DNA from: Anaerolineae bacterium
GTDB taxonomy: Bacteria; Chloroflexota; Anaerolineae; JAAYZQ01
Assembly: GCA_016929795.1 (NCBI GenBank)
Contig: JAFGIA010000059.1
Span: forward strand, 1 to 47,682
DNA: 47,682 bases
Direction of reading: 5' to 3'
Below, piece after piece: positions 24,855 to 38,844 of this stretch (positions are counted from its first letter, which is position 1; every line of letters starts with the position of its first letter). The translations under genes were made by a program, and so were the position numbers. A model generated the notes under the pieces. The model searched no databases. It saw only the letters and a list, made by a program, of their open reading frames with translations, and had not been told where the DNA came from.

Positions 24855-25817
24855 ATGGCGATGGAAGGCAGGATCGTCTGTATGGGCATCGTGGTCGCCG
24901 ACGTGGTCGGCCGGCCGCTGCGGGCGGTGCCGGAGCCGGGGCGGCTGGTGTTGGTGGACGAGATGGCGCTGCACACGGGCGGCTGCGCGCTCAACTCGGC
25001 GACGGCGCTGGCGCGCCTGGGGCTACCGGTGGATGTGGTGGGCAAGGTGGGGGCCGATGCCTTTGGTGATTTTTTGCTGGCCGAGATGGACCGGCGCGGG
25101 ATCGGGCGTGCTGGCGTGCAGCGCGACCCTGACATGGGTACGTCGGCGACGATGGTGATGGTCGAGCCCGATGGCGAGCGGCGCTTTGTGCACTATATCG
25201 GGGCCAACGCGCGCCTGGCCCTCGACGACGTGGACTCCTCCACGCTTGAAGGCGCCTCCATCCTGCATGTGGCAGGGGCTCTCGTGCTTCCCGGCCTCGA
25301 CGGCGAGCCGATGGCGGCGCTGCTGGATCAGGCGCGTGCGGCAGGCGTGGTCACGTTCCTCGACACCGTGTGGGACGACACGGGCAGGTGGATGGAACTC
25401 CTGGGGCCGTCGCTGCCCCACGTCGATTATTTCGTGCCGAGCCTGGCAGAGGCGCAGGCGTTGACGGGCCTGGATGACCCGGTGGACGTGGCGCAAGTGC
25501 TGCTCGCGCGCGGCGTGGGCATCGTGGCGCTCAAGATGGGCGGCGACGGCTGCCTGGTGGTGACGCAGGCTGGCGAGATGTGGCGCGTGCCGGCGTACAA
25601 GGTGGACGTGGTCGACGCGACAGGGGCGGGCGACGCCTTTGCCGCAGGGTTCATCGCCGGGGTGTGGCTCGGCTGGCCGCTCGACCGCACGGCGCGGCTG
25701 GCGAACGCGCTCGGGGCGCTGTGCGTAACCGGTGCGGGCGCGACCGGGAACGTGGCGTCGCTGGACGAGACGCTGGCCTTTATGGAACGGAAACGACAAG
25801 GCAAACCTCCTACTTGA
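24855..25817 (+). CDS. PfkB-family carbohydrate kinase
   Basis: 320 residues with a GAGG ribosome binding site. The first PfkB signature is seen in HTGGCALNSATALARLG (substrate and fold), and the second in VVDATGAGDAFAAGF, where the GAGD Asp is the catalytic base and the Gly-rich loop forms the anion hole. An Asn-Ala pairing and an EAQALTG segment (PSLAEAQ) are as in ribokinase-like enzymes. Phosphorylates a sugar or nucleoside; substrate not identifiable. It follows gatC by 48 nt and may ride on that transcript. Its stop codon lies inside the -35 box of the next promoter. Confidence 0.93.
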   Translation: MAMEGRIVCMGIVVADVVGRPLRAVPEPGRLVLVDEMALHTGGCALNSATALARLGLPVDVVGKVGADAFGDFLLAEMDRRGIGRAGVQRDPDMGTSATMVMVEPDGERRFVHYIGANARLALDDVDSSTLEGASILHVAGALVLPGLDGEPMAALLDQARAAGVVTFLDTVWDDTGRWMELLGPSLPHVDYFVPSLAEAQALTGLDDPVDVAQVLLARGVGIVALKMGGDGCLVVTQAGEMWRVPAYKVDVVDATGAGDAFAAGFIAGVWLGWPLDRTARLANALGALCVTGAGATGNVASLDETLAFMERKRQGKPPT

Positions 25818-25842
25818 CACGGGGCTCTATTCATGCTATAAT
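25814..25842 (+). promoter_or_regulatory. perfect promoter of the TetR-exporter-HgcAB-like operon
   Basis: TTGACA (25814-25819), 17 nt, TATAAT (25837-25842). The -35 overlaps the stop of the PfkB kinase. The predicted start near 25849 is inside the inverted-repeat operator, so bound repressor would block initiation. Confidence 0.92.
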
Positions 25843-25880
25843 TATGAATGATCATTCATTTTCGAATGATGATTCATAAT
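25841..25880. promoter_or_regulatory. 40-bp inverted-repeat operator, likely TetR site
   Basis: A 17-nt left arm (25841-25857) and 17-nt right arm (25864-25880) are inverted repeats with one mismatch, separated by ATTTTC. Each arm holds a half-palindrome; the left one contains the perfect palindrome TGAATGATCATTCA. AT-rich in an otherwise GC-rich region. It lies between the -10 box and the TetR gene, as expected for autorepression by one or two TetR dimers. Confidence 0.88.
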
Positions 25881-25894
25881 TGGGGGCGGGTAAC

Positions 25895-26530
25895 ATGGCC
25901 GGTGGAGCAATGAGCGGGGGGTTGACGAGGCGGGAGCGACTCAAGCGCGAGCGCGAGGAGCGCATCCTCGACGCGGCGGCGGCCGTGTTTGCCGAAAAGG
26001 GCTATCACGGCGCCACGGTCCACGATATTGCTGTGCACGCGGACGTGGCGGATGGGACGATCTATAACTATTTTGACAACAAGTTCGACCTGATCATTGG
26101 CATCCTGGCCCGTGTGACCGATCTCGATGGGCTGCCCGACGAGCTGATGAGTGGTCTGCACGGCGACCCGCGGGCCTTCTTTGTCGCTGCCTTTCGGGAT
26201 CGCCTGGCGCGGATCGCGTATGGACAAGAGATGCTCACCGCGATTCTGCCACAGGTGTTTGTCAACGACCACCTGCGCGGCCGCTTCTACCGCCAGTACG
26301 TGTCGCGCATCTCGCCGTTGCTCGAAGGGTACATCCAGGCACAGGTCGATCGGGGATACATCCACGCCGTCGACGCGCCGCTCCTGACGCGCGTCGTCCA
26401 GGCTGCGTTCATCGGCATGCTCGTGATGCGCATCCTGGGCGATGAGGTATTGCACACGCGCTGGGACGAGGTGCCGGAGCTGCTCGCCGGCATCCTGTTC
26501 GAGGGGATCGGAGACAGCAGGGAGGAGTAA
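25895..26530 (+). CDS. TetR-family transcriptional repressor
   Basis: 211 residues from ATG 25895; ATG 25910 with GGTGGAG before it is an alternative. The N-terminal domain (about 11-70) has the TetR three-helix pattern: RERILDAAAAVFAEKGYHGATVHDIAVHADVADGTIYNYFDNKFDL, with the recognition helix at about 51-60. The C-terminal part (about 75-205) is a helical ligand-binding domain with no clear relative. It probably represses the operon it heads through the inverted repeat at 25841-25880 and is released by a compound exported or processed by it. In E. coli the TetR protein CecR controls the similar ybhGFSR exporter. Confidence 0.93.
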   Translation: MAGGAMSGGLTRRERLKREREERILDAAAAVFAEKGYHGATVHDIAVHADVADGTIYNYFDNKFDLIIGILARVTDLDGLPDELMSGLHGDPRAFFVAAFRDRLARIAYGQEMLTAILPQVFVNDHLRGRFYRQYVSRISPLLEGYIQAQVDRGYIHAVDAPLLTRVVQAAFIGMLVMRILGDEVLHTRWDEVPELLAGILFEGIGDSREE

Positions 26531-26534
26531 GACT

Positions 26535-27656
26535 GTGCTTGTGCGCATCGCCTCGATCGTCCGCAAGGAGTGCCTGCACATCGTGCGCGATCCACGCACG
26601 CTTGCGGTCATGTTCCTGATTCCCGTGACCCAGCTCCTCCTCCTCGGCTATGCGGCTACCACCGACATCAAGCACCTGGCTACCGCCGTGTGGGATCAGG
26701 ATCACAGTGCGGCCAGTCGCGCGTTGGTGGAAGCGTACCGCGTCTCGGGATATTTTGACATAACCATGACGGTGGAGGGAGAGGCGGCACTGGCGCAGGC
26801 AGTGGACGAGGGCAGCGTGCGCGCGGGCTTGATTGTGCCGCGCGGCTATGAGCGAGCACTGGTGCGCGGCGAGCTGGTGCGCGTCGGGTTTGTCGTCGAC
26901 GGGTCTGACCCGAGTGTGGCCAACACGGCGCTCGCCGCGGCACAGGGGGTGGGGCAGGCGCAGTCCGTTGCGGTGGTGCGCCAGGCGCTCGGCGGGCGGG
27001 CGGCTTTGCTGCCCGGCATCGACGTCCATCCGCGCGTGTGGTACAACCCGAGCATGGAGAGTGCCAACTTTATGATCCCCGGGCTGATCGGCGTCATCCT
27101 GTCGATGCTGACCATGTTGATGACGGCCATGTCGATCGTGCGCGAGCGCGAGCAGGGCACCATCGAGCAGTTGATCGTCACGCCCATCCGCCCGCTCGAG
27201 CTGATCGTCGGCAAGGTGTCACCCTACGTGGTGATCGCCTTCTGGGACCTGCTCGAGATCCTGTTCATCGGCGTGTGGTGGTTCGGCGTGCCGGTACATG
27301 GCAGCGTGCCGCTGCTGCTGGCGCTGGCAGGCGTATTCCTGGCGACGTCGCTGGGCTTGGGCATTCTGATCTCGACGGTGTCCAAGACACAGCAGGAGGC
27401 GATGCTGCTCACCTTTTTCATCCTGCTGCCGTCAATTTTTTTATCGGGCTATTTTTTCCCCATCGACGCCATGCCACCCTTTCTGCAACACGTGAGCAAG
27501 CTCGTGCCGCTCACCTACGTGCTGGTCATCGTACGCTCGATCGTGCTCAAAGGTGTGGGGTTCGAGATCCTGCAAGGCGAGGTGGGGGCACTGGCGGTGT
27601 TTGGGGCGGCGACGCTGGGGGTGGCGGCGATGAGATTTCGGAAGAGGCTTGAATAA
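26535..27656 (+). CDS. ABC-2 type exporter permease (YbhS/YbhR-like)
   Basis: 373 residues from GTG 26535, 4 nt after the TetR stop with GGAGGA 8 nt upstream; longer in-frame starts would lie inside the TetR gene. N-terminal helix LAVMFLIPVTQLLLLGYAA (about 21-40), then an extracytoplasmic domain to about 175, and five or six C-terminal helices. The segment SIVREREQGTIEQLIVTPIRPLELIVGKVSPY is the conserved coupling region of ABC-2 permeases of drug and lipid exporters. The size matches YbhS/YbhR (about 370). Only one permease is in this operon, so it probably forms a homodimer driven by the two ATPases at 30150 and 31222. Confidence 0.92.
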   Translation: MLVRIASIVRKECLHIVRDPRTLAVMFLIPVTQLLLLGYAATTDIKHLATAVWDQDHSAASRALVEAYRVSGYFDITMTVEGEAALAQAVDEGSVRAGLIVPRGYERALVRGELVRVGFVVDGSDPSVANTALAAAQGVGQAQSVAVVRQALGGRAALLPGIDVHPRVWYNPSMESANFMIPGLIGVILSMLTMLMTAMSIVREREQGTIEQLIVTPIRPLELIVGKVSPYVVIAFWDLLEILFIGVWWFGVPVHGSVPLLLALAGVFLATSLGLGILISTVSKTQQEAMLLTFFILLPSIFLSGYFFPIDAMPPFLQHVSKLVPLTYVLVIVRSIVLKGVGFEILQGEVGALAVFGAATLGVAAMRFRKRLE

Positions 27657-27702
27657 ATTAGAGATTAGAAAAAGTCAATTGAATAGTGAATCGTGAATTG
27701 CC

Positions 27703-28350
27703 ATGTCGTACGTATACATGAAGGTGCTAGAGTCGAGCCCGGGGAGGTATGAGCGGGGGATGGGGGTGCTGACGCTCGGGAGGTGGGAGCAGGTGCAGCG
27801 CGAGACTGCCGGGCGGGTGGGCACAGGGGAGCGTGTGCTCGACGTCGGGTGCGGGACGGGGGCCCTTGCGTCCAAGATGGCGCGGCGGGGGGCAAAGGTG
27901 ACGGCGATCGATGTGTCGAGTGCGATGCTGGCACAGGCGGCAGAGCGGCTGGCGCAGGAGGGATTGGCAGAGGGGGTGGCGCTGCGCGAGATGGGCGTGG
28001 CGGAACTAGATGTCTTGCCGGATAGTGCGTTTGACGTCGTGACGAGCGTGCTTGTGCTCAGCGAGCTGTCGAATGAAGAGATGGCCTACGCGTTGGCCGA
28101 GTTCCGGCGCTTGCTGCGGCCTGGCGGGCGGCTGCTGATCGCCGACGAGGTGCTGCCAGGCTCGGTTGTGGGCAGGGTGGCGACGTGGCTGGTGCGTCTC
28201 CCATTCGCCATCGCCGCGTTTCTCCTCACGCAGACCATGACGCACCGTGTGTCGGGACTGCGGGAGCGGATGGCAGCGGCGGGATTCGATGTGGTAGAGG
28301 AAAAGGGGTACCTGGCGGGCACGCTGCGGTTGTTTGTGGCCAGAGTGTGA
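27703..28350 (+). CDS. corrinoid-protein-associated SAM methyltransferase (CpaM-like)
   Basis: 215 residues. Class I SAM-dependent methyltransferase fold: motif I RVLDVGCGTGALA (44-56), acidic motif II VTAIDVSSAM, and motif IV/post-I LLRPGGRLLIADEVL. The opening MSYVYMKVLESSPGRYERGMGVLTLG is one I associate with the CpaM family, named for its neighbourhood with HgcA-like corrinoid proteins (recalled, not checked). The neighbour is exactly such a protein, 2 nt downstream. Role likely methyl transfer to or from the corrinoid or its substrate. The 46-nt upstream gap is AT-rich with GTGAATcGTGAATTG tandem repeats and no promoter I can name. Confidence 0.82.
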   Translation: MSYVYMKVLESSPGRYERGMGVLTLGRWEQVQRETAGRVGTGERVLDVGCGTGALASKMARRGAKVTAIDVSSAMLAQAAERLAQEGLAEGVALREMGVAELDVLPDSAFDVVTSVLVLSELSNEEMAYALAEFRRLLRPGGRLLIADEVLPGSVVGRVATWLVRLPFAIAAFLLTQTMTHRVSGLRERMAAAGFDVVEEKGYLAGTLRLFVARV

Positions 28351-28352
28351 AC

Positions 28353-29477
28353 ATGATGGACATGATCAAGGATGTCGTCCAGACGATGCTTCGCTTTTTT
28401 CCATTCCCCACCCAAACGGGCTTGAAGGTGGTGGGGGCGCCGGGGCGGGACGCGCCGGTGTGGGTCACGTGCAACTTTGACCTGACAGTGCGGCGGGTGC
28501 TGCGCGCGCTCGATGGGTTGGATGGCTACCTGCTGGTGGCGCCGAGCAAGGGGATCAACGTCTGGTGCGCGTCGGGAGGCGGGATGTTCAACGCGCACTC
28601 GGTAATCTCGGCGGTAAAGACAAGCCGGATCGAGGAGCGGGTGGACCACCGCACGCTGATCCTGCCGCAGTTGGCCGCGACGGGGGTCGACGTGGCGTAC
28701 ATAGAGGCGCAGACGGGGTGGGGGTGCAAGTTTGGCCCCGTGTACGCCCGCGACCTGGCCGCCTACCACGCCCATGGCGAGCAAAAGACACGGGCGATGT
28801 GTCGCGTCGAGTTTCCGTTGCGCGACAGGCTGGAGATGGCCGTAATGTGGGCGGCGCCGCTGTCCATGATCACAAGTGTGGTGGCGGCGCTCTTTGACTG
28901 GCGGCTGGTGCCCGGCGTGTTGGCACTGATCTGGGGCTTTAGCCTCTTCCTGTTCGCCGGCTATGATGCGGTGATGCACCATGTGCCGGGGCCGGTGGGG
29001 TTGGTCAAGGTGTTGTTGCTCGGCCTGGTGGGTGCTACCGGTGTGACGGTGTGGGGGTTGGGGGCGGCGGGTTGGTCCGTGGGGCGCGTTGCCGGCTGGA
29101 GTGTAGGGATCCTGGCGGTGGCACTGGTGTTGGGGTTTGACCTCGACGGGTCGAGTCCACTCGCGGCCGGATCGACCTCGGCTTTTTGGGCGCGGCGGTG
29201 GCCCGGGATCCTGGATGTGGGGGCGCGCTTGGGTTTCAAGGTGGAGGCGTGGTTTGAGCTTGAGGTCGACGCGGCGCGCTGCAAGGGGTGTGCGACGTGT
29301 GTATCGGTGTGTCCGAAGGGTGTGTTCGAGTTGTACCGAGAGGAGGCCCGGCAGCGAGCACGAGTGTCGGATGCCGGGGCATGTGTGCTGTGCACGGCGT
29401 GCGTCAAGCAATGTCCGGAAGGGGCGGTCGTAGCTAATCCGCCGGTAAAAGTTTTCTTGCCTCTGCCAGAGGTTTGA
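28353..29477 (+). CDS. fused HgcA-HgcB-like corrinoid/ferredoxin membrane protein
   Basis: 374 residues from ATG 28353, the first of two adjacent ATGs. Residues 20-145 match the corrinoid domain of the mercury-methylation protein HgcA: VVGAPGRDAPVWVTCNFDLT, cap helix KGINVWCASGGG with Cys72, and HRTLILPQLAATGVDV (99-114) ... FGPVYARDLAAY (127-138). Four or five membrane helices lie between about 163 and 262. Residues 305-365 are a 2x[4Fe-4S] ferredoxin as in HgcB: C310-x2-C313-x2-C316-x3-C320 and C344-x2-C347-x2-C350-x3-C354. HgcA and HgcB are normally separate genes; a fused form is known from some thermophiles and was reported inactive in Hg methylation (recalled). Lys of the canonical NVWCAAGK is replaced by Gly. 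Confidence 0.88.
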   Translation: MMDMIKDVVQTMLRFFPFPTQTGLKVVGAPGRDAPVWVTCNFDLTVRRVLRALDGLDGYLLVAPSKGINVWCASGGGMFNAHSVISAVKTSRIEERVDHRTLILPQLAATGVDVAYIEAQTGWGCKFGPVYARDLAAYHAHGEQKTRAMCRVEFPLRDRLEMAVMWAAPLSMITSVVAALFDWRLVPGVLALIWGFSLFLFAGYDAVMHHVPGPVGLVKVLLLGLVGATGVTVWGLGAAGWSVGRVAGWSVGILAVALVLGFDLDGSSPLAAGSTSAFWARRWPGILDVGARLGFKVEAWFELEVDAARCKGCATCVSVCPKGVFELYREEARQRARVSDAGACVLCTACVKQCPEGAVVANPPVKVFLPLPEV

Positions 29478-29496
29478 GGTCAAAAGGGGGGATGCT

Positions 29497-30153
29497 GTGA
29501 GAAGGGGACGCCTGTTTCTGTCGTGGGGGGCCAAGATCGTGCTCGGCATTGTGGCCGGGCATACAGTGATCCGGGTGGTGCGGCACGTGTACAAGTTTCC
29601 AATTCCCGAGTTCATGGCAAACCTGATCGACAACCCGCTGCGCCGGCGGCTGCAGCCGCCGGACGAGACGGCGGCGCGACACGGGCTGCGGCCCGGGATG
29701 GTGGCACTCGAGGTGGGGCCGGGCAACGGGCGCTACACGCTGGCCGCAGCGCGACACGTCGGCCCCGGCGGCCGCGTGGTGGCGATCGACATCGAGCCGC
29801 GGATGGTCGAGCGCGTAGCGCGCCGCGCTGCCGAGGAAGGGGTGGACAACGTCGAGGCGCGCGTGGCGGATGTGTACCGCCTGCCATGGGTGGACGGGAC
29901 GTTCGACGCGGCCTATATGATGGCGGTGATCGGCGAGATCCCGGAGCCGGAGCGGGCGCTGAGGGAGCTGCATCGTGTGCTGCGCCCCGGCGGGACGCTG
30001 GCGCTCAGCGAGCTGCTGATGGACCCGGACTATCCGTTGTCGAGCACCTTGGTGCGCTGGGGTGAGGGAGCCGGGTTCCGCGTGAAGGAAAAGGTGGGGA
30101 ATATGGTTTACTATACCCTGATCCTGGCCAAGCCGGGTGAGGAGGGCCTGTGA
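29497..30153 (+). CDS. SAM-dependent methyltransferase with N-terminal membrane helix
   Basis: 218 residues from GTG 29497 with GGGGGGAT upstream. A hydrophobic helix at residues 6-27 (LFLSWGAKIVLGIVAGHTVI) is followed by a class I methyltransferase core: motif I VALEVGPGNGRYT (69-81), motif II VVAIDIEPRM, and RVLRPGGTLALSELL. The helix would place it at the membrane beside the fused HgcAB-like protein, 19 nt upstream. Distinct in sequence from CpaM, so this locus has two different methyltransferases. Its stop overlaps the ATPase start (GTGA). Confidence 0.88.
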   Translation: MRRGRLFLSWGAKIVLGIVAGHTVIRVVRHVYKFPIPEFMANLIDNPLRRRLQPPDETAARHGLRPGMVALEVGPGNGRYTLAAARHVGPGGRVVAIDIEPRMVERVARRAAEEGVDNVEARVADVYRLPWVDGTFDAAYMMAVIGEIPEPERALRELHRVLRPGGTLALSELLMDPDYPLSSTLVRWGEGAGFRVKEKVGNMVYYTLILAKPGEEGL

Positions 30154-31229
30154 GCGACCCGGCTCAGCACGAAGGGTGCGTCATCGAAGCCGAAAATCTG
30201 ACGCGGCGATTCAAAAAGATTGTGGCCGTGGATGGGCTGGATCTGAAGGTGCGCGCCGGTGAAATCTTTGGGCTGGTGGGGCCCGACGGGGCGGGCAAGA
30301 CGACGACGATGCGCATGTTATGTGCGATCATGGACCCCACGGCGGGCAGTGCCCGCGTCGCCGGGTTCGATACAAGGGCGCACCCGGAGCAGATCAAGGC
30401 GCGCATCGGCTACATGGCGCAGCGCTTTAACCTGTACGGCGACCTGACGGTGGACGAAAATCTCAACTTTTTCGCCGACGTCTTTCAGGTGCGGGGCAGG
30501 GAGCGCAGGGAGCGGAAGGAGCGCCTGCTCCACTTTGCGCGCCTGACGCGCTTTCGCAAACGCCGCGCGGCGCACCTGTCGGGCGGCATGCAGAAAAAGC
30601 TGGCGCTGGCATGTACGCTGATCCACGAGCCACAGGTGATCTTTCTCGACGAGCCGACGACGGGCGTCGACCCCGTCAGCCGGCGCGAGTTCTGGGATAT
30701 TCTGGCAGAGCTGCACCTGCATGGGATCACGATTTTTGTCACGACACCCTACATGGATGAGGCGGAGCGCTGCTCGCGTGTGGGGTTGATGTACCAGGGG
30801 CGGATCGTCGTGTGCGACGCACCAGAGAAGGTGAAGCGGCTGGTGGAAGGCGATCTGATCGAGCTGAGGCCGGTCGACGCGGCTGCGGCCGGGGGAGATC
30901 TGATCGGGGCCGGTGCGGGCAGGGAAGGGGCGCCAGGGCGCAGCCTGCGCCGCGCACAGCAACTGCTTGCCCTCGCCGACGGGGTGATCGAGGTACAGAC
31001 CTACGGCGACTTGTTGCATATCTTTGTCGACGACGCCGGCATACGCCAGGCGGCGCTGGTGGCGGCGCTGGCGGCGGAAGGGCTGGAGGCGGCGGATGTA
31101 CGCCTGACGCGGCCGCGCATGGAGGAAGCGTTTATCTCGCTCGTGCGGCGCGAGATGGCTGCCAGGGAGGCGGGCGCCAGGGAGGCGGGCGCCAAGGAGG
31201 CGGGCGCCAAGGAGGCGGGGGATGGTTGA
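30150..31229 (+). CDS. ABC-2 exporter ATPase (YbhF N-half-like) with repeat tail
   Basis: 359 residues from GTG 30150 in a GTGA overlap with the methyltransferase. Walker A GPDGAGKTT (44-52), Q-loop YMAQRFNLYGDLTV, signature HLSGGMQKKLALA, Walker B QVIFLDEPTTGVDP, and the TTPY switch in which the usual His is replaced by Pro (FVTTPYMDEAE), a feature also seen in YbhF N-terminal halves. The C terminus carries four copies of A(R/K)EAG encoded by a 15-bp DNA repeat. The His replacement suggests a degenerate catalytic site paired with the intact ATPase downstream. Confidence 0.9.
   Translation: MSDPAQHEGCVIEAENLTRRFKKIVAVDGLDLKVRAGEIFGLVGPDGAGKTTTMRMLCAIMDPTAGSARVAGFDTRAHPEQIKARIGYMAQRFNLYGDLTVDENLNFFADVFQVRGRERRERKERLLHFARLTRFRKRRAAHLSGGMQKKLALACTLIHEPQVIFLDEPTTGVDPVSRREFWDILAELHLHGITIFVTTPYMDEAERCSRVGLMYQGRIVVCDAPEKVKRLVEGDLIELRPVDAAAAGGDLIGAGAGREGAPGRSLRRAQQLLALADGVIEVQTYGDLLHIFVDDAGIRQAALVAALAAEGLEAADVRLTRPRMEEAFISLVRREMAAREAGAREAGAKEAGAKEAGDG
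31161..31220 (+). repeat. four tandem 15-bp units containing ribosome-binding motifs
   Basis: Units GCCAGGGAGGCGGGC (twice) and GCCAAGGAGGCGGGC/G (twice). Read in frame they give the (A-R/K-E-A-G) tail of the ATPase; each unit contains a Shine-Dalgarno-like AGGGAGG or AAGGAGG. The last one (31209-31215) is 6 nt before the ATG at 31222. Unit number could vary by slippage. Confidence 0.9.
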
Positions 31230-32190
31230 GTCGGCGCGCGCAAACAGCCACGCCGTCGAGGCGGTCGACCTGACCAAGTTGTTTGGCGACTTTGTCGCCG
31301 TCGACCATGTCAGTTTTGTCGTGCCGCGCGGCGCCATCTTTGGATTCCTGGGGCCGAACGGTGCCGGCAAAACGACTACGATCCGGATGCTGCTCGGCCT
31401 GCTCAAACCGACCTCGGGCACGGCCAGGGTGCTTGGGCTCGACGTGGTGCGGCAGACGGCGGCGGTGAAAAAGCGGATCGGCTATATGTCGCAGCGCTTT
31501 AGCCTGTACGACGACTTGACGGTAGAAGAGAACCTGAATTTTTATGGGCGCACCTACGGCGTGCGTGGCAAGGCGCTGCGAGCGCGCAAGGATTTCGTGC
31601 TGCACATGGCGGGGCTGGAGGGGCGCGAGCGAGAGCTGACGGGCAACCTGGCGGGGGGCTGGAAGCAGCGCCTCGCCCTCGGCACGGCGATCATCCACGA
31701 ACCCGAGGTACTCTTTCTCGACGAGCCGACGGCGGGCGTCGACCCGATCTCGCGCCGCGCCTTCTGGGACCTGCTCTATGACCTGGCAGAGGGGGGGACG
31801 ACGATCATGGTCACTACCCATTACATGGATGAGGCCGAACATTGCCAGAGCCTGGCCTTTATCCAGAATGGCCAAATCGTCGCATCCGGCTCGCCGGCAG
31901 GGATCAAGGAGCGCGAGATGCGCGGGCAGGTGCTCGAGATCGACTGCGACGATCCGGCGCTGGCCATCCCCGCGCTGCGCAACATGGGCGTGTTCGACGA
32001 GGTGGCGCTCTATGGCGCCCTGATCCACGCTGTAGCAGGCGACGCCCGGGCGCTGAAGCCACAGATCGAGCGCACCCTGCACGAGGCAGGGGTCGCGATC
32101 GAAACGATGGACGTCATTGCGCCGTCGCTGGAGGATGTGTTCATCGCCAGCGTGCGGCGCCCGGTGGCGTCGACTGGGGAGAATGAATAA
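31222..32190 (+). CDS. ABC-2 exporter ATPase (YbhF C-half-like)
   Basis: 322 residues from ATG 31222, overlapping the first ATPase by 8 nt. Walker A GPNGAGKTTT (44-53), YMSQRFSLYDDLTV Q-loop, signature NLAGGWKQRLALG (first Ser replaced by Ala), Walker B EVLFLDEPTAGVDP, and switch His in MVTTHYMDEAE. In E. coli YbhF both ATPase halves are one protein; here they are separate, co-encoded genes. It is expected to pair with the 30150 product on the permease at 26535. Confidence 0.93.
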   Translation: MVESARANSHAVEAVDLTKLFGDFVAVDHVSFVVPRGAIFGFLGPNGAGKTTTIRMLLGLLKPTSGTARVLGLDVVRQTAAVKKRIGYMSQRFSLYDDLTVEENLNFYGRTYGVRGKALRARKDFVLHMAGLEGRERELTGNLAGGWKQRLALGTAIIHEPEVLFLDEPTAGVDPISRRAFWDLLYDLAEGGTTIMVTTHYMDEAEHCQSLAFIQNGQIVASGSPAGIKEREMRGQVLEIDCDDPALAIPALRNMGVFDEVALYGALIHAVAGDARALKPQIERTLHEAGVAIETMDVIAPSLEDVFIASVRRPVASTGENE

Positions 32191-32193
32191 GGA

Positions 32194-33735
32194 ATGAAGC
32201 GAGCGATCATGGGGGGGATGTTGGTGCTGGTGATCGCGGGTGCTGCTGCCGGCGGGTGGTGGTACCTGGATCGACACCCGGAGTGGGTAGCGTGGGCGCA
32301 GGTGCAGGTGGATGCCGCCATCGCCGAACTGGGCTGGGCGCCGGCAAAAGATCGGCCCGGGTTGGCCGCGTCAGGTTTTATTGAGGCCCGCGAGGTGGCG
32401 GTGGTCACCGAGCTTGGCGGGCGGATCGTCGACATTGCGGCCGACGAGGGCGACGAGGTGCGCGCCGGCACCGATCTGGTGCGCCTTGACGATGCGCTTC
32501 TGCGAGCACAGATCCTGTCGGCTGAGGCGGATCTGGCTGCCGCCGAGGCTGCGCTGGCCCAGGTGCGTGCTGGCGTGGGCCAGGAAACCATCGACCACGC
32601 GCGGGCTCAACTGGAGCAGGCGCGCATCGCCCAGGAGGCAGCCAGGGTGGCATGGCAAGATGCAGAGGCGATTGCGGACAACCCCCAGGATCTCGCGCTG
32701 GCGCTGGCCGTGGCGCAGGCGCAGGCGGACGTGCTCCATCTGCAAGAGCGCCAGGCACAGGCGATGGCCGCGTCGGCGCAGGCGGCCGCCGACCTGGCGG
32801 ACGAATCGGTCAGGCTGCTGGAAGAGTTCGAGCCGCGCAGGGAGTGGGTCGAGATTGGCTCCTGGAGCCTGGGAGATCTGCCGGCCTGGCTGCCGATTCC
32901 ATCGGGGCAGGGCGATGGTGAGTACAAGATCGGCGACTATAAGATTGTCATCGCCGATGGACAGATCACTGTGTATACACGCGCCCGGATTGCCGTCCCG
33001 GCCGACATTATGCAGGAAGCGCGTTACCAACAGGCGACGTCGGTGTACCAGGCGTGGACGGCGTGGACCGGAGCGGCGCAGGCAGAGGCCGCTCGCCAGG
33101 GGACCGAGGCCTATGTCACCGCGCTGGCTCGACAGGTAGCCAACCCCTTGACCCTGCGGGCGCAGGCGAACGCCGCGCAGGCACAGTACGAGATTGCCAC
33201 TGCGGCGGTCACCCTGGCGAACGCGCAGGTAGAAGGTCTCGAGATGGGCGCGACGCCCGAGCAGGTGGCCGCCGTCGAGGCGCAGGTCGAGATCGCCCGT
33301 GCGGCCCTGGCAGCGCTCGAGGTGCAGGCCGGCCGGTTCACGCTCGAGGCGCCGATCTCGGGACTGGTGCTCGAGCGCGCCGTGCAGGTGGGTGAGGTGG
33401 CGGTTCCTGGCGCGCCGCTGTTGACGATTGGCGACCTGGACAACCTGGTGCTGACGGTGTACGTGGCAGAAGATGAGCTGGGGCGTGTCTACCCGGGCCA
33501 ACTTGTGTCGGTGACCGTCGACGCCTACCCGGGGCGTGTTTTCCAGGGGACGGTGCGCTATATTGCCAGCGAGGCCGAGTTCACGCCACGCAACATCCAG
33601 ACCCGCGAGGAGCGAGTCAATATGGTGTTCGCCGTCGAGATTGATCTGCCTAACCCGGACCACGCGCTCAAGCCGGGCATGCCGGCTGATGCGGTGCTGC
33701 TGGATGAGGGGATGGAGGACGGTCAAGGGAACTAG
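32194..33735 (+). CDS. HlyD/YbhG-type membrane-fusion protein
   Basis: 513 residues beginning 3 nt after the ATPase stop. A signal anchor (about 3-27) leads to a lipoyl half-motif (VVTELGGRIVDIAADEGDEVRAGTDLVRLD, about 67-98), a long Ala/Gln/Glu coiled-coil region (to about 385) interrupted near residues 215-270 by a Pro/Trp/Tyr-rich section, the second lipoyl half (GLVLERAVQVGEVAVPGAPL) and a barrel domain with VAEDELGRVYPGQLV. In the YbhGFSR system this protein links permease to the outside. It is one of two adjacent copies. Confidence 0.92.
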   Translation: MKRAIMGGMLVLVIAGAAAGGWWYLDRHPEWVAWAQVQVDAAIAELGWAPAKDRPGLAASGFIEAREVAVVTELGGRIVDIAADEGDEVRAGTDLVRLDDALLRAQILSAEADLAAAEAALAQVRAGVGQETIDHARAQLEQARIAQEAARVAWQDAEAIADNPQDLALALAVAQAQADVLHLQERQAQAMAASAQAAADLADESVRLLEEFEPRREWVEIGSWSLGDLPAWLPIPSGQGDGEYKIGDYKIVIADGQITVYTRARIAVPADIMQEARYQQATSVYQAWTAWTGAAQAEAARQGTEAYVTALARQVANPLTLRAQANAAQAQYEIATAAVTLANAQVEGLEMGATPEQVAAVEAQVEIARAALAALEVQAGRFTLEAPISGLVLERAVQVGEVAVPGAPLLTIGDLDNLVLTVYVAEDELGRVYPGQLVSVTVDAYPGRVFQGTVRYIASEAEFTPRNIQTREERVNMVFAVEIDLPNPDHALKPGMPADAVLLDEGMEDGQGN

Positions 33736-33748
33736 ATCGAGGCAACTG

Positions 33749-35083
33749 ATGAAACGGATTGTGATCATACTACTGCTCGTTACTGCCGCCGGCGGACTGG
33801 CTGCCGGGTGGTGGTGGATGCGCACCGAGCCGGAGGCGGTCGTCGAACTCCTGGCGGGCGGCGGCCTGGAGCGCGAGCGCGCCGAGGCGCTCGTCTCGTC
33901 GGTTGCACAGGGCCAGCAGCCGGAGGAGCTAGTTCTCACTGCCTCGGGCAGCATTGAGGGGATCGAGGTGGCGATCGTCTCCGAGTTTGGCGGGCGCGTC
34001 GTCGCACTGCACGCCGACCAGGGCGACGAGGTGGAGGCGGGTGAAGTGCTCATTCAGCTCGACACCAGCTTGCTCCTGGCCCAGGTGGCGCAGGCGCAGG
34101 CCGCGGTCGCGGCGGCCGAGGCGAACCTGGCGAGCGTGAACGCGGGCACGCATCCCGCCGAGATCCTCGCCGCGCAGGCGGCACTGCGCCACGCGGTCGC
34201 CGAGCGCGACGCCGCCGATACGACCCTGGCCGACGCGCGGGCGATCCTGGCCGATCCGCAAGAGATCGAGGCGCGCATCGTAGAGGCACGGGCCGCCGTG
34301 CAGATCGCCGCGGTGCAGATCGAGCAGGCCGAGTCGCAGGTCAAAGCGGCCGAGGTGGAGCGCGATCGCTACCGCGCCCAGGGCTCGATGGAGGAGAAGG
34401 GACTGTACCAGGCCTTCAGCTACCAGGTGGAGGCGGCCAACCTGGCCGTCGAAGCGGCACGGGCGAACCTGGCCGGCGCCGAGCGGACGCTGGCGGCGCT
34501 GGAGGCCGTGCGCGACAATCCCCTCGTCATTGAGAGCCAGGTGCACATGGCGGAGGCGAACGCCGATCTGGCAGCACAGGGCGTGCGTGTGGCCAATGCC
34601 AGGCTGGACGAGCTACAGGCTGGCCCGTCGCCCGAAGAGGTGGCTGTCGCCGAGGCACAGGTGGCAAGGGCGCAGGCGGCCGTTGTGCTGCTCCAAACCC
34701 AGATCGACATGCTCACCCTCAAGTCGCCGATCGACGGGATCGTGACCAGCCGGTCGGTGCACGCGGGTGAGGCGGCGCTCGCGGGTGCGACGTTGATGAC
34801 CGTCGCCGACCTGGACGAGGTCAAGCTGACGATCTATGTGCCGGAGGCCAACCTGGGCCGGGTGTACCTGGGGCAGGAGGTGGCGGTGCAGGTCGATTCC
34901 TACCCGGGCGAGGTGTTTACCGGGACCGTTTCGTACATCGCGCAGCAAGCCGAATTCACACCCAAGAACGTGCAGACAGAGAAGGATCGGGTGAACATGG
35001 TGTTCGCCCTGCGCGTGCGCCTGCCGAACCCGGGGCACCGGTTGAGACCAGGGATGCCGGCCGACGCGGTGATGGGGGAGTAG
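33749..35083 (+). CDS. second HlyD/YbhG-type membrane-fusion protein
   Basis: 444 residues from ATG 33749 (GAGG upstream); the longer reading frame overlaps the previous gene and is not needed. Signal anchor MKRIVIILLLVTAAGGLAAGW, then SEFGGRVVALHADQGDEVEAGEVLIQLD lipoyl half, a coiled coil, the second half (GIVTSRSVHAGEAALAGATLM) and YVPEANLGRVYLGQEVAV barrel. Homologous to the preceding gene through both lipoyl parts and the C-terminal sequence NPGH/NPDH.L.PGMPADAV. Two adaptors may form a hetero-oligomer or be alternative forms. It closes the operon. Confidence 0.92.
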   Translation: MKRIVIILLLVTAAGGLAAGWWWMRTEPEAVVELLAGGGLERERAEALVSSVAQGQQPEELVLTASGSIEGIEVAIVSEFGGRVVALHADQGDEVEAGEVLIQLDTSLLLAQVAQAQAAVAAAEANLASVNAGTHPAEILAAQAALRHAVAERDAADTTLADARAILADPQEIEARIVEARAAVQIAAVQIEQAESQVKAAEVERDRYRAQGSMEEKGLYQAFSYQVEAANLAVEAARANLAGAERTLAALEAVRDNPLVIESQVHMAEANADLAAQGVRVANARLDELQAGPSPEEVAVAEAQVARAQAAVVLLQTQIDMLTLKSPIDGIVTSRSVHAGEAALAGATLMTVADLDEVKLTIYVPEANLGRVYLGQEVAVQVDSYPGEVFTGTVSYIAQQAEFTPKNVQTEKDRVNMVFALRVRLPNPGHRLRPGMPADAVMGE

Positions 35084-35591: not shown

Positions 35592-36083
35592 TTAGAACAA
35601 GAACGACGACACGATCACCATGATCTCGCCGACCGCCTGGCTAACCATCAGGGCCACACCGATCACCACCCCGGCGAGCAAGCCGGCAACACCCAGGTTG
35701 CCATCGGCCAGCTCGGCTACCTCGTCGATGCCGCGTGTCAGGGCGGCAAAGAGGTAGAGGGCGAGGGTGATGGAGAGCAGGGCCAACACGAGCCCCACGG
35801 CGAGCTGCAAGGCCTCGGCCAGCAGGACCCGGACATAGATCTCGCGGCCCACGTCCCACACGATGGTGTTGACCGCCAGTGCCGGCCTCAGGACGATGGC
35901 GACGGCGACCACCAGGGCACCAACGACGAGGCCGACAGCCGCGTTGCCTTCACGAAGGGCTTGCCACTCGTCCAGCCCGCGCGTAAACCATTGGAACAGA
36001 TAAAAAGCCAGATACGCCGCGACGGCGCTCAGGACGACGGCGATGGCCAGTTGTGCCAGACCAAGCAGCAGTGCTCCTGCCAT
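35592..36083 (-). CDS. DUF350-like membrane protein, two repeats
   Basis: 163 residues from ATG 36083, chosen for the strong GAGGAGGGG ribosome binding site; the N-terminal extension to 36128 lacks one. Four to five membrane segments; two internal repeats each carry a helix, then an acidic 'TRGLDEWQALREGNAAVGLVVGA' or 'TRGIDEVAELADGNLGVAGLLAG' loop, the DUF350 signature of G.D....L..GN.AV. Function unknown. The reading frame ends 8 nt after the palindrome/AT-rich region on the downstream side. Confidence 0.85.
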   Translation of the reverse strand: MAGALLLGLAQLAIAVVLSAVAAYLAFYLFQWFTRGLDEWQALREGNAAVGLVVGALVVAVAIVLRPALAVNTIVWDVGREIYVRVLLAEALQLAVGLVLALLSITLALYLFAALTRGIDEVAELADGNLGVAGLLAGVVIGVALMVSQAVGEIMVIVSSFLF

Positions 36084-36182
36084 TTTCCCCTCCTCGATCG
36101 ACAGTGATGCGTGGATGCAGTATACCACAAAGTGGGGCGGGTGGCAATGGTGCGTGGGAGCGTGTTAGCGACACGGCTGTGA

Positions 36183-36237: not shown

Positions 36238-36342
36238 GACTGCGCTGCTCGTTCTGCACAGGATCCGGACCCGGGACGGGCTCGGGTTCGCCCCGTCAGA
36301 TGAGCCCTGGCACGTCGCTGGCCCGACAGGGAGGAGGGTGTG

Positions 36343-38844
36343 ATGGAAAACCGTGCACGAGTCGTGCCTCTCTTTTTGCTGCTCGTTCTTTTCTCCCTTG
36401 TTGCCGCGCTGCCCGGCCGCGCCGCCACCGACAGCCCCTCGACTCCACCCGGCTGGCTCGTCGAGTGCGTCGACTGCCCCGCCGGGATCGAGCTCCTGGG
36501 CGACCACGCGCTGCGCCTCGACGCGGCGGGCAACCCACACATCGCGTACGGCGGCGAGCACCTCTACTACGCCCATCACGATGGCGCGGAGTGGCATTTT
36601 GAGATCGTGGACCCCACCGACGGCGTGGGGGAAGAGGCCTCGCTGGCGCTCGATGCCGCCGGCGCGCCGCACATCGTCTACGATGCGCCGGGTACGCGCG
36701 AGCTGCGCTACGCCTGGCACGACGGCGCGAGCTGGCACGTCGAGGTGGTAGATGGGGGGATCTGGTTCGGCGGCGGAGGCCTGTCGCTGGCGCTCGACGC
36801 CAACGGCAGCGCGCACGCCAGTTATTACGATTGGTTCCACAGGACGCTGAAACACGCGTGGCGAGAGGGTGCGACGTGGCACGTCGAGGTTGTGGACGGC
36901 ACCGGCGGCGCGATCGGGTCGACCTCGCTGGCGCTCGACGCCGGCGGCGCCCCGCACATCAGCTACGCCCTGGGCGACTATCCCGCGCCGGGGCAGTTCA
37001 GCGTGCGCTATGCACGTTACGACGGCGCGGCGTGGCACCTCGAGACGGTGTATACCGGCCCCAACTGGGGAATGGAGACGTCGTTGGCGCTCGATGGCGC
37101 CGGACTGGCCCACATTCTCCTGACGCAGGAGAAGGATTACGAAGGTGAGGATGGCGCGGTCTATTATGCGCGGCGCGACGGCAGCGCCTGGCAGCTCGAG
37201 ACGGTGGCGACAGGCGACGTGGCGGTGCCGGCGCTGGCGCTCGACGACGCGGGTGAGCCGCACGTCGCCTTCGAACAGGGTTTTTGGGAGCTGAGTGGGC
37301 TGCGCTACGGGTGGCGGGAGGGTGGGGTGTGGCACGTGGACAGCGTGCCTGACCCGGCACGCGTGGGGCGTTCGATCTCGCTGGCCCTCGATCCGGCCGG
37401 CCGGCCGCACCTCGCCTATCTCGACGAGCCGGGCTCGCCGGTGCGCCACGTAAAGCACGCCTGGCACGACGGGGCGCAGTGGCACACCGAGTACGTGGAC
37501 TATGGCGGGTCGCGGGGTGGTGGCCTGTCGCTGGCGGTCGACGGCACCGGCCGGCCGCACATCGCCTACCGGGACAAGTTCCAGCGTTTTTTGATGTACG
37601 CTCGGCTAGAGGGCAGCGAGTGGGCTACGGAGTACGTGGACACGAGCGCACGGGCCGAGGAGCCCTCGATGGCCCTCGACGCGACGGGCGAGCCCCACAT
37701 CGCTTACCACTTTGGCACCGACACGGTGGGCGGCGTGCGGCACGCGTGGCACGGCGCGGCGGGTTGGCAGGTCGAGACGGTAGACGGCGAGGGGTGGGGG
37801 GGGAATGGCCCCTCTCTGGCCTTCGATCCGCTCGGCGACCCGTACATCAGCTATGGCGACGACGGCGGCAAGCTGCGGCTGGCGTGGCACGACGGCAGTG
37901 ACTGGCAGGTCGAGACGGTGTGGGCGGGAGGTGAGGGGGTGGGGGCGACCGAACTGGCCTTCGATCCCGCTGGCCGGCCCCACATCGTGTACGCGACGTC
38001 GCAATATTCTTACACGCTGCGCTATGCGTGGCACGACGGCAGTGCCTGGCAGTTCGAGATCATCCTCCCGGCGGGCCGTCGTTTTGCAGAGGTGCGTGGG
38101 CTGGCCATCGACCCGACCGGCCGGCGCCACCTGCTCTACGGCGAGGAAGGTGTTCCGTGGTACGCGTGGTGTGACGGGGCCGAGTGGAACCGCGAGCAGT
38201 TGGAAGGGTATGCGGCGTCGCTCACCCTCGACGCCGGCAACCGGCCCCACCTGAGCTACACCGACCAGCTCGGCGTGTACCACGCGTGGCACGATGGCGC
38301 CGCGTGGCGCGTGGAGCGCGCCGCATCCACTCCGTTCTTTGGCGAGTCTGCTATTGACGTCGACGAGGCGGGTGTGCCCCACATCGCCTTTAGCTATTAC
38401 ACTCTGCTGGGCGACAGGCTGCTCTACGCGCGGCGAGAGTCACCCCTCTTTTACGTCGCCAAGGACGCGCAGCCGGGCGATGGTGTGGAGAACGGCGAGG
38501 CCATCACCTACACGCTGGCGCTCTACGGTCCCGGCCACGAGGTGGAGCTGTGGGATCCACTGCCGGCAAACGTAGAATATATCTCGGGCACGCTTACGGC
38601 GCCCGCGGAGTACAGCCCCACCGCGCGGGCCGTGCTGTGGCACGGTGTCTTGCCCACCGATACCGCTCAGGTGATCTACTTGGGCGTGACGGCGGTGTTC
38701 AGTGACACGGGGCCGGCGCCGATCGTCAACACGGCGTGGTTGACCGATATGCAGACGGGCGCAGTGAGCACGGCGACGGCGGTGATTAATAGTCACCGGG
38801 TCTATCTGCCGGTGATGGTGCGGAACTATTGGTGTGATTGGTGA
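36343..38844 (+). CDS. large secreted beta-propeller protein with DUF11-like domain and YLP tail
   Basis: 833 residues. Signal peptide (about 8-29, cut after GRAA). Fourteen repeats of about 50 residues follow, each starting LALDAAGxPHIxY and containing LRYAWHDGAxWHVExVD; fourteen suggests two seven-bladed propellers. Repeats vary in length and are diverged, so this is an old expansion. Residues about 700-815 look like a DUF11 (conserved repeat) domain with EAITYTLALYGPGHEVELWDPLPANVEYISGT. The C terminus reads HRVYLPVMVRNYWCDW, the same kind of YLPv/i tail as the PKD protein at 46992. GGAGGAGGG precedes the start. Ligand or target unknown; likely surface-exposed. Confidence 0.88.
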   Translation: MENRARVVPLFLLLVLFSLVAALPGRAATDSPSTPPGWLVECVDCPAGIELLGDHALRLDAAGNPHIAYGGEHLYYAHHDGAEWHFEIVDPTDGVGEEASLALDAAGAPHIVYDAPGTRELRYAWHDGASWHVEVVDGGIWFGGGGLSLALDANGSAHASYYDWFHRTLKHAWREGATWHVEVVDGTGGAIGSTSLALDAGGAPHISYALGDYPAPGQFSVRYARYDGAAWHLETVYTGPNWGMETSLALDGAGLAHILLTQEKDYEGEDGAVYYARRDGSAWQLETVATGDVAVPALALDDAGEPHVAFEQGFWELSGLRYGWREGGVWHVDSVPDPARVGRSISLALDPAGRPHLAYLDEPGSPVRHVKHAWHDGAQWHTEYVDYGGSRGGGLSLAVDGTGRPHIAYRDKFQRFLMYARLEGSEWATEYVDTSARAEEPSMALDATGEPHIAYHFGTDTVGGVRHAWHGAAGWQVETVDGEGWGGNGPSLAFDPLGDPYISYGDDGGKLRLAWHDGSDWQVETVWAGGEGVGATELAFDPAGRPHIVYATSQYSYTLRYAWHDGSAWQFEIILPAGRRFAEVRGLAIDPTGRRHLLYGEEGVPWYAWCDGAEWNREQLEGYAASLTLDAGNRPHLSYTDQLGVYHAWHDGAAWRVERAASTPFFGESAIDVDEAGVPHIAFSYYTLLGDRLLYARRESPLFYVAKDAQPGDGVENGEAITYTLALYGPGHEVELWDPLPANVEYISGTLTAPAEYSPTARAVLWHGVLPTDTAQVIYLGVTAVFSDTGPAPIVNTAWLTDMQTGAVSTATAVINSHRVYLPVMVRNYWCDW

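Follow-up and report, generated by a model that had tools for sequence, protein, structure and literature searches.

The complete 47,682-nucleotide (nt) stretch of contig JAFGIA010000059.1 from an Anaerolineae bacterium, here called the window, carries nine genes on one strand (25895-35083, +) in which a fused HgcAB-like corrinoid protein is combined with two class I S-adenosylmethionine (SAM) methyltransferases and an ABC/HlyD exporter. One methyltransferase is CpaM, the corrinoid protein-associated enzyme, and the other is referred to as MT2. CpaM repeatedly accompanies members of the HgcA-like family and was not observed next to HgcA itself, an association that is new in this analysis, although the CpaM/HgcAB-like pair is already named in NCBIfam and is not new as annotation. 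The explanation favoured here, which is tentative and falls somewhat short of being probable, is that the operon joins a methyl-transfer cassette to a TetR-controlled exporter, and that it may methylate a lipophilic compound other than mercury, which would then be exported. The closest named relatives of the window are Anaerolineae metagenome-assembled genomes (MAGs) of the Chloroflexota.

The HgcAB-like protein (374 residues; 28353-29477, +) matches model NF043039 over residues 6-359 with 387 bits (cut-off 285). CpaM (27703-28350, +) ends 2 nt before the start of this gene and matches NF043040 with 277.6 bits (cut-off 180). Both proteins are thus over curated cut-offs and adjacent; the two models carry names without a stated function. 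The fusion protein fails the models for HgcA (NF040863, 154.4 bits, cut-off 275), HgcB (NF040864, 47 bits, cut-off 99) and the large subunit of the corrinoid iron-sulfur protein, CFeSP (PRK04165, 70.3 bits, cut-off 306). It shares with HgcA and HgcB a CFeSP-type corrinoid domain, a cap-helix cysteine, a hydrophobic membrane domain and a 2[4Fe-4S] ferredoxin; the membrane domain and the cap-helix cysteine set it apart from the CFeSP large subunit. The motifs listed in the preliminary description of this DNA are all present, namely the cap-helix motif with Cys72 (equivalent to Cys93 in ND132 HgcA, and invariant in A1 and A2), the HR.LILPQL and FGPV.A.D segments, and eight ferredoxin cysteines in two CxxCxxCxxxC motifs (Cys 310-320 and 344-354). 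The membrane part shows four segments by hydropathy and the same number of long helices in an AlphaFold2 model with a mean predicted local distance difference test score (pLDDT) of 87.4, which replaced an earlier model (pLDDT 74.5, below 50 in the cap region). Five transmembrane helices are given for HgcA (PMC7305189).

Matches to NF043039 at an E-value of 1e-50 or better were found in 47 of 396 genomes of the class of MAG G001, which has the closest HgcAB-like operon, and ten are over the cut-off. Their scores sort them into three tiers, that of the fusions, a middle one and that of HgcA. A reading of the middle tier as plain HgcA was rejected, since most of it consists of CpaM-HgcA fusions, each with its ferredoxin on a gene of its own directly behind. 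CpaM adjoins or is fused to the HgcA-like protein in 36 of 40 loci, and the remaining four (L026, L030, L039, L131) stop at a contig edge on the CpaM side. These are distinct loci, among them those of the window, G410 and G661 and of a draw of genomes from the phylum of G004; duplicates of one place were counted once, and G006 was counted twice, for two different loci. A second CpaM-like match (37%) on the opposite strand, just after the HgcAB-like gene of G852 (L126:10276-10704), was left uncounted. CpaM lies beside none of 31 HgcA loci (22 + 9), the flanks of which are mostly about 1.5 kb or less (434 nt upstream in L071), such that a more distant CpaM would be missed; HgcA was called here from score tier and cap motif, with the HgcA model scored on L063 and L041 only. 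The former of these (L063:1278-2704, 444 bits, cut-off 275) is a separate HgcA gene followed by a ferredoxin gene, in the same genome, G001, as the closest HgcAB-like operon.

Three architectures are seen. In the first, CpaM adjoins an HgcA-HgcB fusion, as in the window. In the second, a CpaM-HgcA fusion adjoins HgcB (15 loci in the class of G001), with a variant in G410, where a flavodoxin-ferredoxin (L107:10055-10903) takes the place of HgcB between the fusion and an ABC ATPase. The third, from Desulfarculaceae (L004), has CpaM, HgcA and HgcB in one frame, the CpaM start being cut off. In two draws the HgcA-like family is rare, with matches in 5/400 genomes of the phylum of G001 at E 1e-40 and in 1/77 of the phylum of G007. 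A scan of genome contigs gave eight loci; L008 was dropped as a bare ferredoxin match. The fusions, the three architectures and the exporter/MT2/TetR setting were not found described in the open-licence PMC literature searched, and the excerpted text of an hgcAB neighbourhood paper (PMC10349881) describes neither the CpaM fusions nor the exporter setting.

In a tree of 53 corrinoid domains, HgcA (support 99/92) and CFeSP (100/100) are separated from the HgcA-like side, which has weaker support (89/77). The HgcA-HgcB fusions make up a single clade (100/98), which falls within the CpaM-HgcA fusions when the tree is rooted on CFeSP. The tree program warned of a possible false joining of HgcA and CFeSP, both of which have long branches. 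The tree contains 14 of the 19 middle-tier loci and 15 of the 22 HgcA loci. Four fused HgcAB sequences have served as paralogs to root an HgcAB tree (PMC7438021), and a cluster of fused proteins, Chloroflexi among them, is described as the point from which most HgcA branch (PMC7573106). The link to HgcA that was proposed from the window alone is supported, with a match to the HgcAB-like model (387 bits, against 154 for HgcA) and a position outside CFeSP. An assignment to the CFeSP large subunit is contradicted by its score and by the separate CFeSP branch.

Mercury is an unlikely substrate, to judge by the residues that are missing. The published motifs are NVWCA(A/G/S)GK in HgcA and C(M/I)EC(G/S)(A/G)C in HgcB (PMC7536318), and neither is matched by the NVWCASGG and CVLCTAC of the window protein. 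The lysine of the HgcA motif is found in none of 120 HgcAB-like proteins (best 120 of 488, the window's own included). Cys73 of HgcB is essential, and at least one C-terminal cysteine is needed for full activity (PMC7305189). The window protein has no cysteine beyond the second cluster motif, and thus neither Cys73 nor tail cysteines, and 118 of the same 120 proteins also lack any cysteine after the last cluster (exceptions P0065 and P0082). The separate ferredoxins divide similarly: beside HgcA in the class of G001, 14/15 have the GVGC cysteine plus at least one more downstream, and the other ends at GVG; beside CpaM-HgcA fusions or truncated copies, 17/18 have no cysteine after the last cluster, the exception being that beside the fusion of L021, whose last residue is cysteine. 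Among the fusions compared, cysteine-rich C-terminal tails were seen in just two distant ones (L005, L006), which come from Eisenbacteria and Oligoflexia. Methanococcoides methylutens, with a fused hgcAB, made no methylmercury under the conditions tested, and the same paper cites this result for Pyrococcus furiosus, also with a fused hgcAB (PMC5893877). That a fused HgcAB methylates mercury, as Cys72, the hydrophobic domain and the eight cluster cysteines might suggest, is therefore extremely improbable given the failed HgcA and HgcB models, the departures from both motifs, the absent cysteines and these two organisms, and mercury methylation was rejected as the function. The presence of CpaM and the separate tree branch are further differences from HgcA and HgcB.

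The preliminary description had coupled the corrinoid protein to SAM methyltransferases, which agrees with the position of CpaM next to the HgcAB-like gene and of MT2 directly after it. Because a SAM methyltransferase is fused or adjacent at every HgcA-like locus that is uncut by a contig edge, the sequence comparison suggests that CpaM performs or assists the first methyl step, from SAM to the corrinoid. By analogy with HgcAB and CFeSP, the fused ferredoxin would reduce the corrinoid to Co(I), and CpaM would bring SAM and help methyl transfer to cobalt, whose lower ligand would be Cys72. Purified HgcAB takes a methyl group from SAM via methylcob(III)alamin with a cysteine ligand (PMC11588087). 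It is also conceivable, but improbable, that CpaM and MT2 methylate a substrate directly, and that the corrinoid protein separately methylates or demethylates without receiving a SAM methyl via CpaM. This would suit the generic class I fold of CpaM, which has small-molecule and phosphoethanolamine methyltransferases among its relatives of known structure, and the activity of purified HgcAB without CpaM (PMC11588087), but would not be expected from the fusion of CpaM to the corrinoid domain in the 15 loci, G410 and L004, nor from the HgcA loci, where CpaM was not seen.

MT2 (29497-30153, +; PF08241, 85 bits) has no cysteine, and neither have 78 of 120 relatives (best 120 of 3358). It had been described as membrane-tethered, a description that is withdrawn here, as a hydropathy scan finds no 19-residue segment of 1.6 or more. 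The arsenite methyltransferase PRK11873 is its second-best model, at 77 bits against a cut-off of 263. ArsM uses arsenic-binding cysteines. With this score and no cysteines, MT2 was rejected as an ArsM. A metal(loid) route, in which the corrinoid would methylate a soft metal(loid) such as arsenic, antimony, selenium or tellurium and the exporter would remove the methylated form, gains from the rank of PRK11873 and from the suitability of Cys-ligated methyl-cobalt for soft acceptors, by analogy with HgcAB (PMC11588087). It is nevertheless unlikely, given the low PRK11873 score, the scarcity of cysteines in both methyltransferases (one in CpaM), the lack of any metal resistance gene among the nine genes, and a regulator of the TetR rather than the ArsR or MerR type.

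The methyl-transfer genes lie within those of the exporter, with the permease before and the ATPases after them, and the coordinates confirm the order of the nine genes as previously given. The single consensus promoter is also confirmed: a sigma-70 site, TTGACA-17-TATAAT (25814-25842, +), has 12/12 consensus positions, a 17-nt spacer and a TG ahead of the -10 box, compared with a mean of 1.1 sites with at least 9 matches in the shuffled promoter region. Just downstream is an inverted repeat (25840-25881) with 18-nt arms (25840-25857 and 25864-25881, 94%), within which is a perfect 16-bp palindrome (25844-25859). Allowing up to three mismatches, this 16-mer has two matches in the window, both at the repeat, with 0.02 expected. 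The repeat looks like an operator for the TetR-family regulator encoded by the first gene (25895-26530, +; PF00440, 59 bits). It is followed by the only permease of the operon, of the ABC-2 type (26535-27656, +; PF12698, 175 bits; C-terminal part of RbbA, 237 bits, below cut-off). Beyond CpaM, the HgcAB-like gene and MT2 come two ABC ATPases of the DrrA/RbbA type, both below the respective cut-offs (30150-31229, +, PF00005, 105 bits; 31222-32190, +, PF00005, 103 bits), and two HlyD/YbhG-like periplasmic adaptors (32194-33735, +, PF16576, 91 bits; 33749-35083, +, PF16576, 87 bits, its start set at the ATG at 33749, with scoring done on 33605-35080). Spacings from TetR through the first HlyD gene are +4, +46, +2, +19, -4, -8 and +3 nt, in keeping with the overlaps and short gaps reported before. 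GC content of the cassette is 0.65-0.68, against 0.64-0.69 for its neighbours; a recent foreign insertion was considered and is unsupported by composition, since GC and GC at third codon positions both resemble the neighbouring genes.

In Escherichia coli, YbhFSR is under TetR-family control. Together with YbhG it forms an ABC-2/HlyD system for efflux of tetracyclines and ethidium (PMC7190983). The window exporter had been called YbhGFSR-like, and this stands as a resemblance in gene types (ABC-2 permease, DrrA/RbbA-type ATPases and HlyD adaptors). It does not stand at the level of the family models, as no exporter protein is over an equivalog cut-off of these models (the adaptors have 161 and 175 bits for PRK03598, cut-off 393), and the window differs in having two ATPase genes, one permease, two HlyD genes and a methyl cassette inside.

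The cassette directly precedes ATPase genes not only in the window but also in G001 and G410. In G001, where the HgcAB-like protein is 63% identical to that of the window, the genes CpaM, HgcAB-like, MT2, ATPase 1, ATPase 2, HlyD 1, HlyD 2 follow each other as in the window, at 63-83% identity. The two permeases ahead of them have just 35-38% identity to the window permease. In G410, the row is CpaM-HgcA fusion, flavodoxin-ferredoxin, ATPase (67%) and HlyD (44%). G410 was not chosen via its exporter association; with two draws of 400 genomes and four genomes besides G001 with each feature, the chance of one overlap is 0.04, and for the two features to lie within 2.2 kb out of 6.9 Mb a further rough figure of 6e-4 applies. 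An indirect comparison of metagenome hits was made with the longest-contig sizes in the lists for the HgcAB-like protein (best 120 of 488), HlyD 1 (best 120 of 3712) and MT2 (best 120 of 3358), with a null from 120 shifts; 119, 120 and 119 sizes were used after removal of the window's own rows. The HgcAB-like and HlyD 1 lists, from searches that each scored 7998 candidates sharing most words, have five sizes of at least 5 kb in common, one being that of G001 (null mean 0.13, maximum 1), and the HgcAB-like and MT2 lists have eight (null mean 0.05, maximum 1). The HlyD 1 and MT2 lists have one in common, which is found in all three. The possibility that HgcAB-like homologues are never beside ABC-2/HlyD genes is contradicted by this recurrence in G001, G410 and metagenome contigs of matching length.

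The exporter also occurs alone. A search with the adaptor in the 396 genomes of the class found six at E 1e-90, five of which have the exporter without the cassette, and a search with ATPase 2 in 400 genomes of the phylum found five at E 1e-120, with G402 and G414 lacking the cassette. An empty site is seen in G020, which belongs to the order of G001: its genes for TetR, permease, ATPase 1, ATPase 2 and two HlyD proteins are contiguous, and 27 nt separate the permease and ATPase matches, compared with the cassette of about 2.5 kb in the window. The window may have gained the cassette, or G020 may have lost it. In the empty-site contig (L092), a small membrane protein downstream of HlyD 2 is similar by eye to that at 35592-36128 (-) in the window. 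A second TetR-like gene, identified by eye, lies between one permease and a permease pair in L096:3650-4376 and L094:7109-7831, and there are therefore at least two layouts of the exporter family.

Several observations weigh against the favoured explanation. The exporter lacks methyl genes in seven of nine genomes read (G020, G011, G298, G016, G289, G402 and G414) and has them in two, plus the window, and an HgcA-like match is absent from all seven at the E 1e-50 and E 1e-40 thresholds. Conversely, of 21 HgcA-like loci other than that of the window, 19 show no such exporter in the flanking sequence that was read, which is short in some cases; six further loci also lack it, two of them showing 31% identical ATPase matches 3-6 kb away. 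The contig of G410 ends with no permease visible, and the MT2 copy of G001 (L050:4611-5216) has an in-frame stop near its start, from sequencing error or decay. Purified HgcAB, as cited above, takes the SAM methyl without CpaM. By NF043039, the CpaM-HgcA fusions are related but do not all count as HgcAB-like members: two of the middle tier pass the cut-off of 285 and the others are below, two fusions having rescored at 283 and 283. Shared regulation could account for the distribution, if one toxic inducer switches on both cassette and exporter while each handles a molecule of its own, the cassette having lodged in an existing TetR-controlled exporter operon to use its promoter. This is a serious possibility, albeit rather unlikely. 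The lone exporters, the HgcA-like loci without one and the GC content of the cassette are all consistent with it; random lodging would, however, not be expected to place the cassette directly before the ATPases in the window, G001 and G410, with two permease layouts (window and G001) and two fusion states. The earlier view that the locus makes or moves a methylated product and exports it is thus retained for the conjunction of methyl and exporter genes, while export itself stays an inference, the exporter often being alone; likewise, the exporter association recurs in two genomes but is absent from most HgcA-like neighbourhoods.

Under the favoured explanation, the acceptor is probably lipophilic and not mercury. 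A lipophilic organic acceptor, rather than a metal, is favoured because the mercury-handling cysteines are absent, the methyltransferases are cysteine-poor, and a TetR gene and an ABC-2/HlyD exporter are present. A weak hint in the same direction comes from F420H2-dependent quinone-reductase-like genes (PF04075) close to three HgcA-like loci, which represent two architectures (L047:2247-2738, L048:5696-6274 and L056:12763-13245, from G002, G003 and G302). From gene context, methyl-cobalt would hand its methyl group to a membrane-embedded or membrane-associated acceptor, and MT2 might add or prime a further methyl group. TetR would sense the acceptor or product and free the promoter, and the exporter, built from the permease, both ATPases and both HlyD adaptors, would pump the product out. 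Beside the operon is a gene for a large protein with many repeats of the DAxGxPHIxY type (36340-38844).

The suggestion for metagenomes is that fused HgcAB-like genes should not count as mercury methylators. More broadly, and doubtfully, CpaM, the HgcA-like protein and an HgcB-like ferredoxin might constitute a widespread membrane enzyme whose Cys-ligated corrinoid receives its methyl group from SAM through the class I methyltransferase and methylates a non-mercury metabolite, exported in this case; the mercury methylase would then be an offshoot that lost CpaM and gained mercury-handling cysteines. Why HgcA-type corrinoid proteins exist in nature remains to be explained. Their sister family, which has a recurring SAM-methyltransferase partner, several fusions and, in some lineages, a TetR-bearing exporter operon, makes the question of the role of HgcA testable, with TetR ligands, exporter substrates and CpaM-dependent methyl-cobalt formation as assayable handles.

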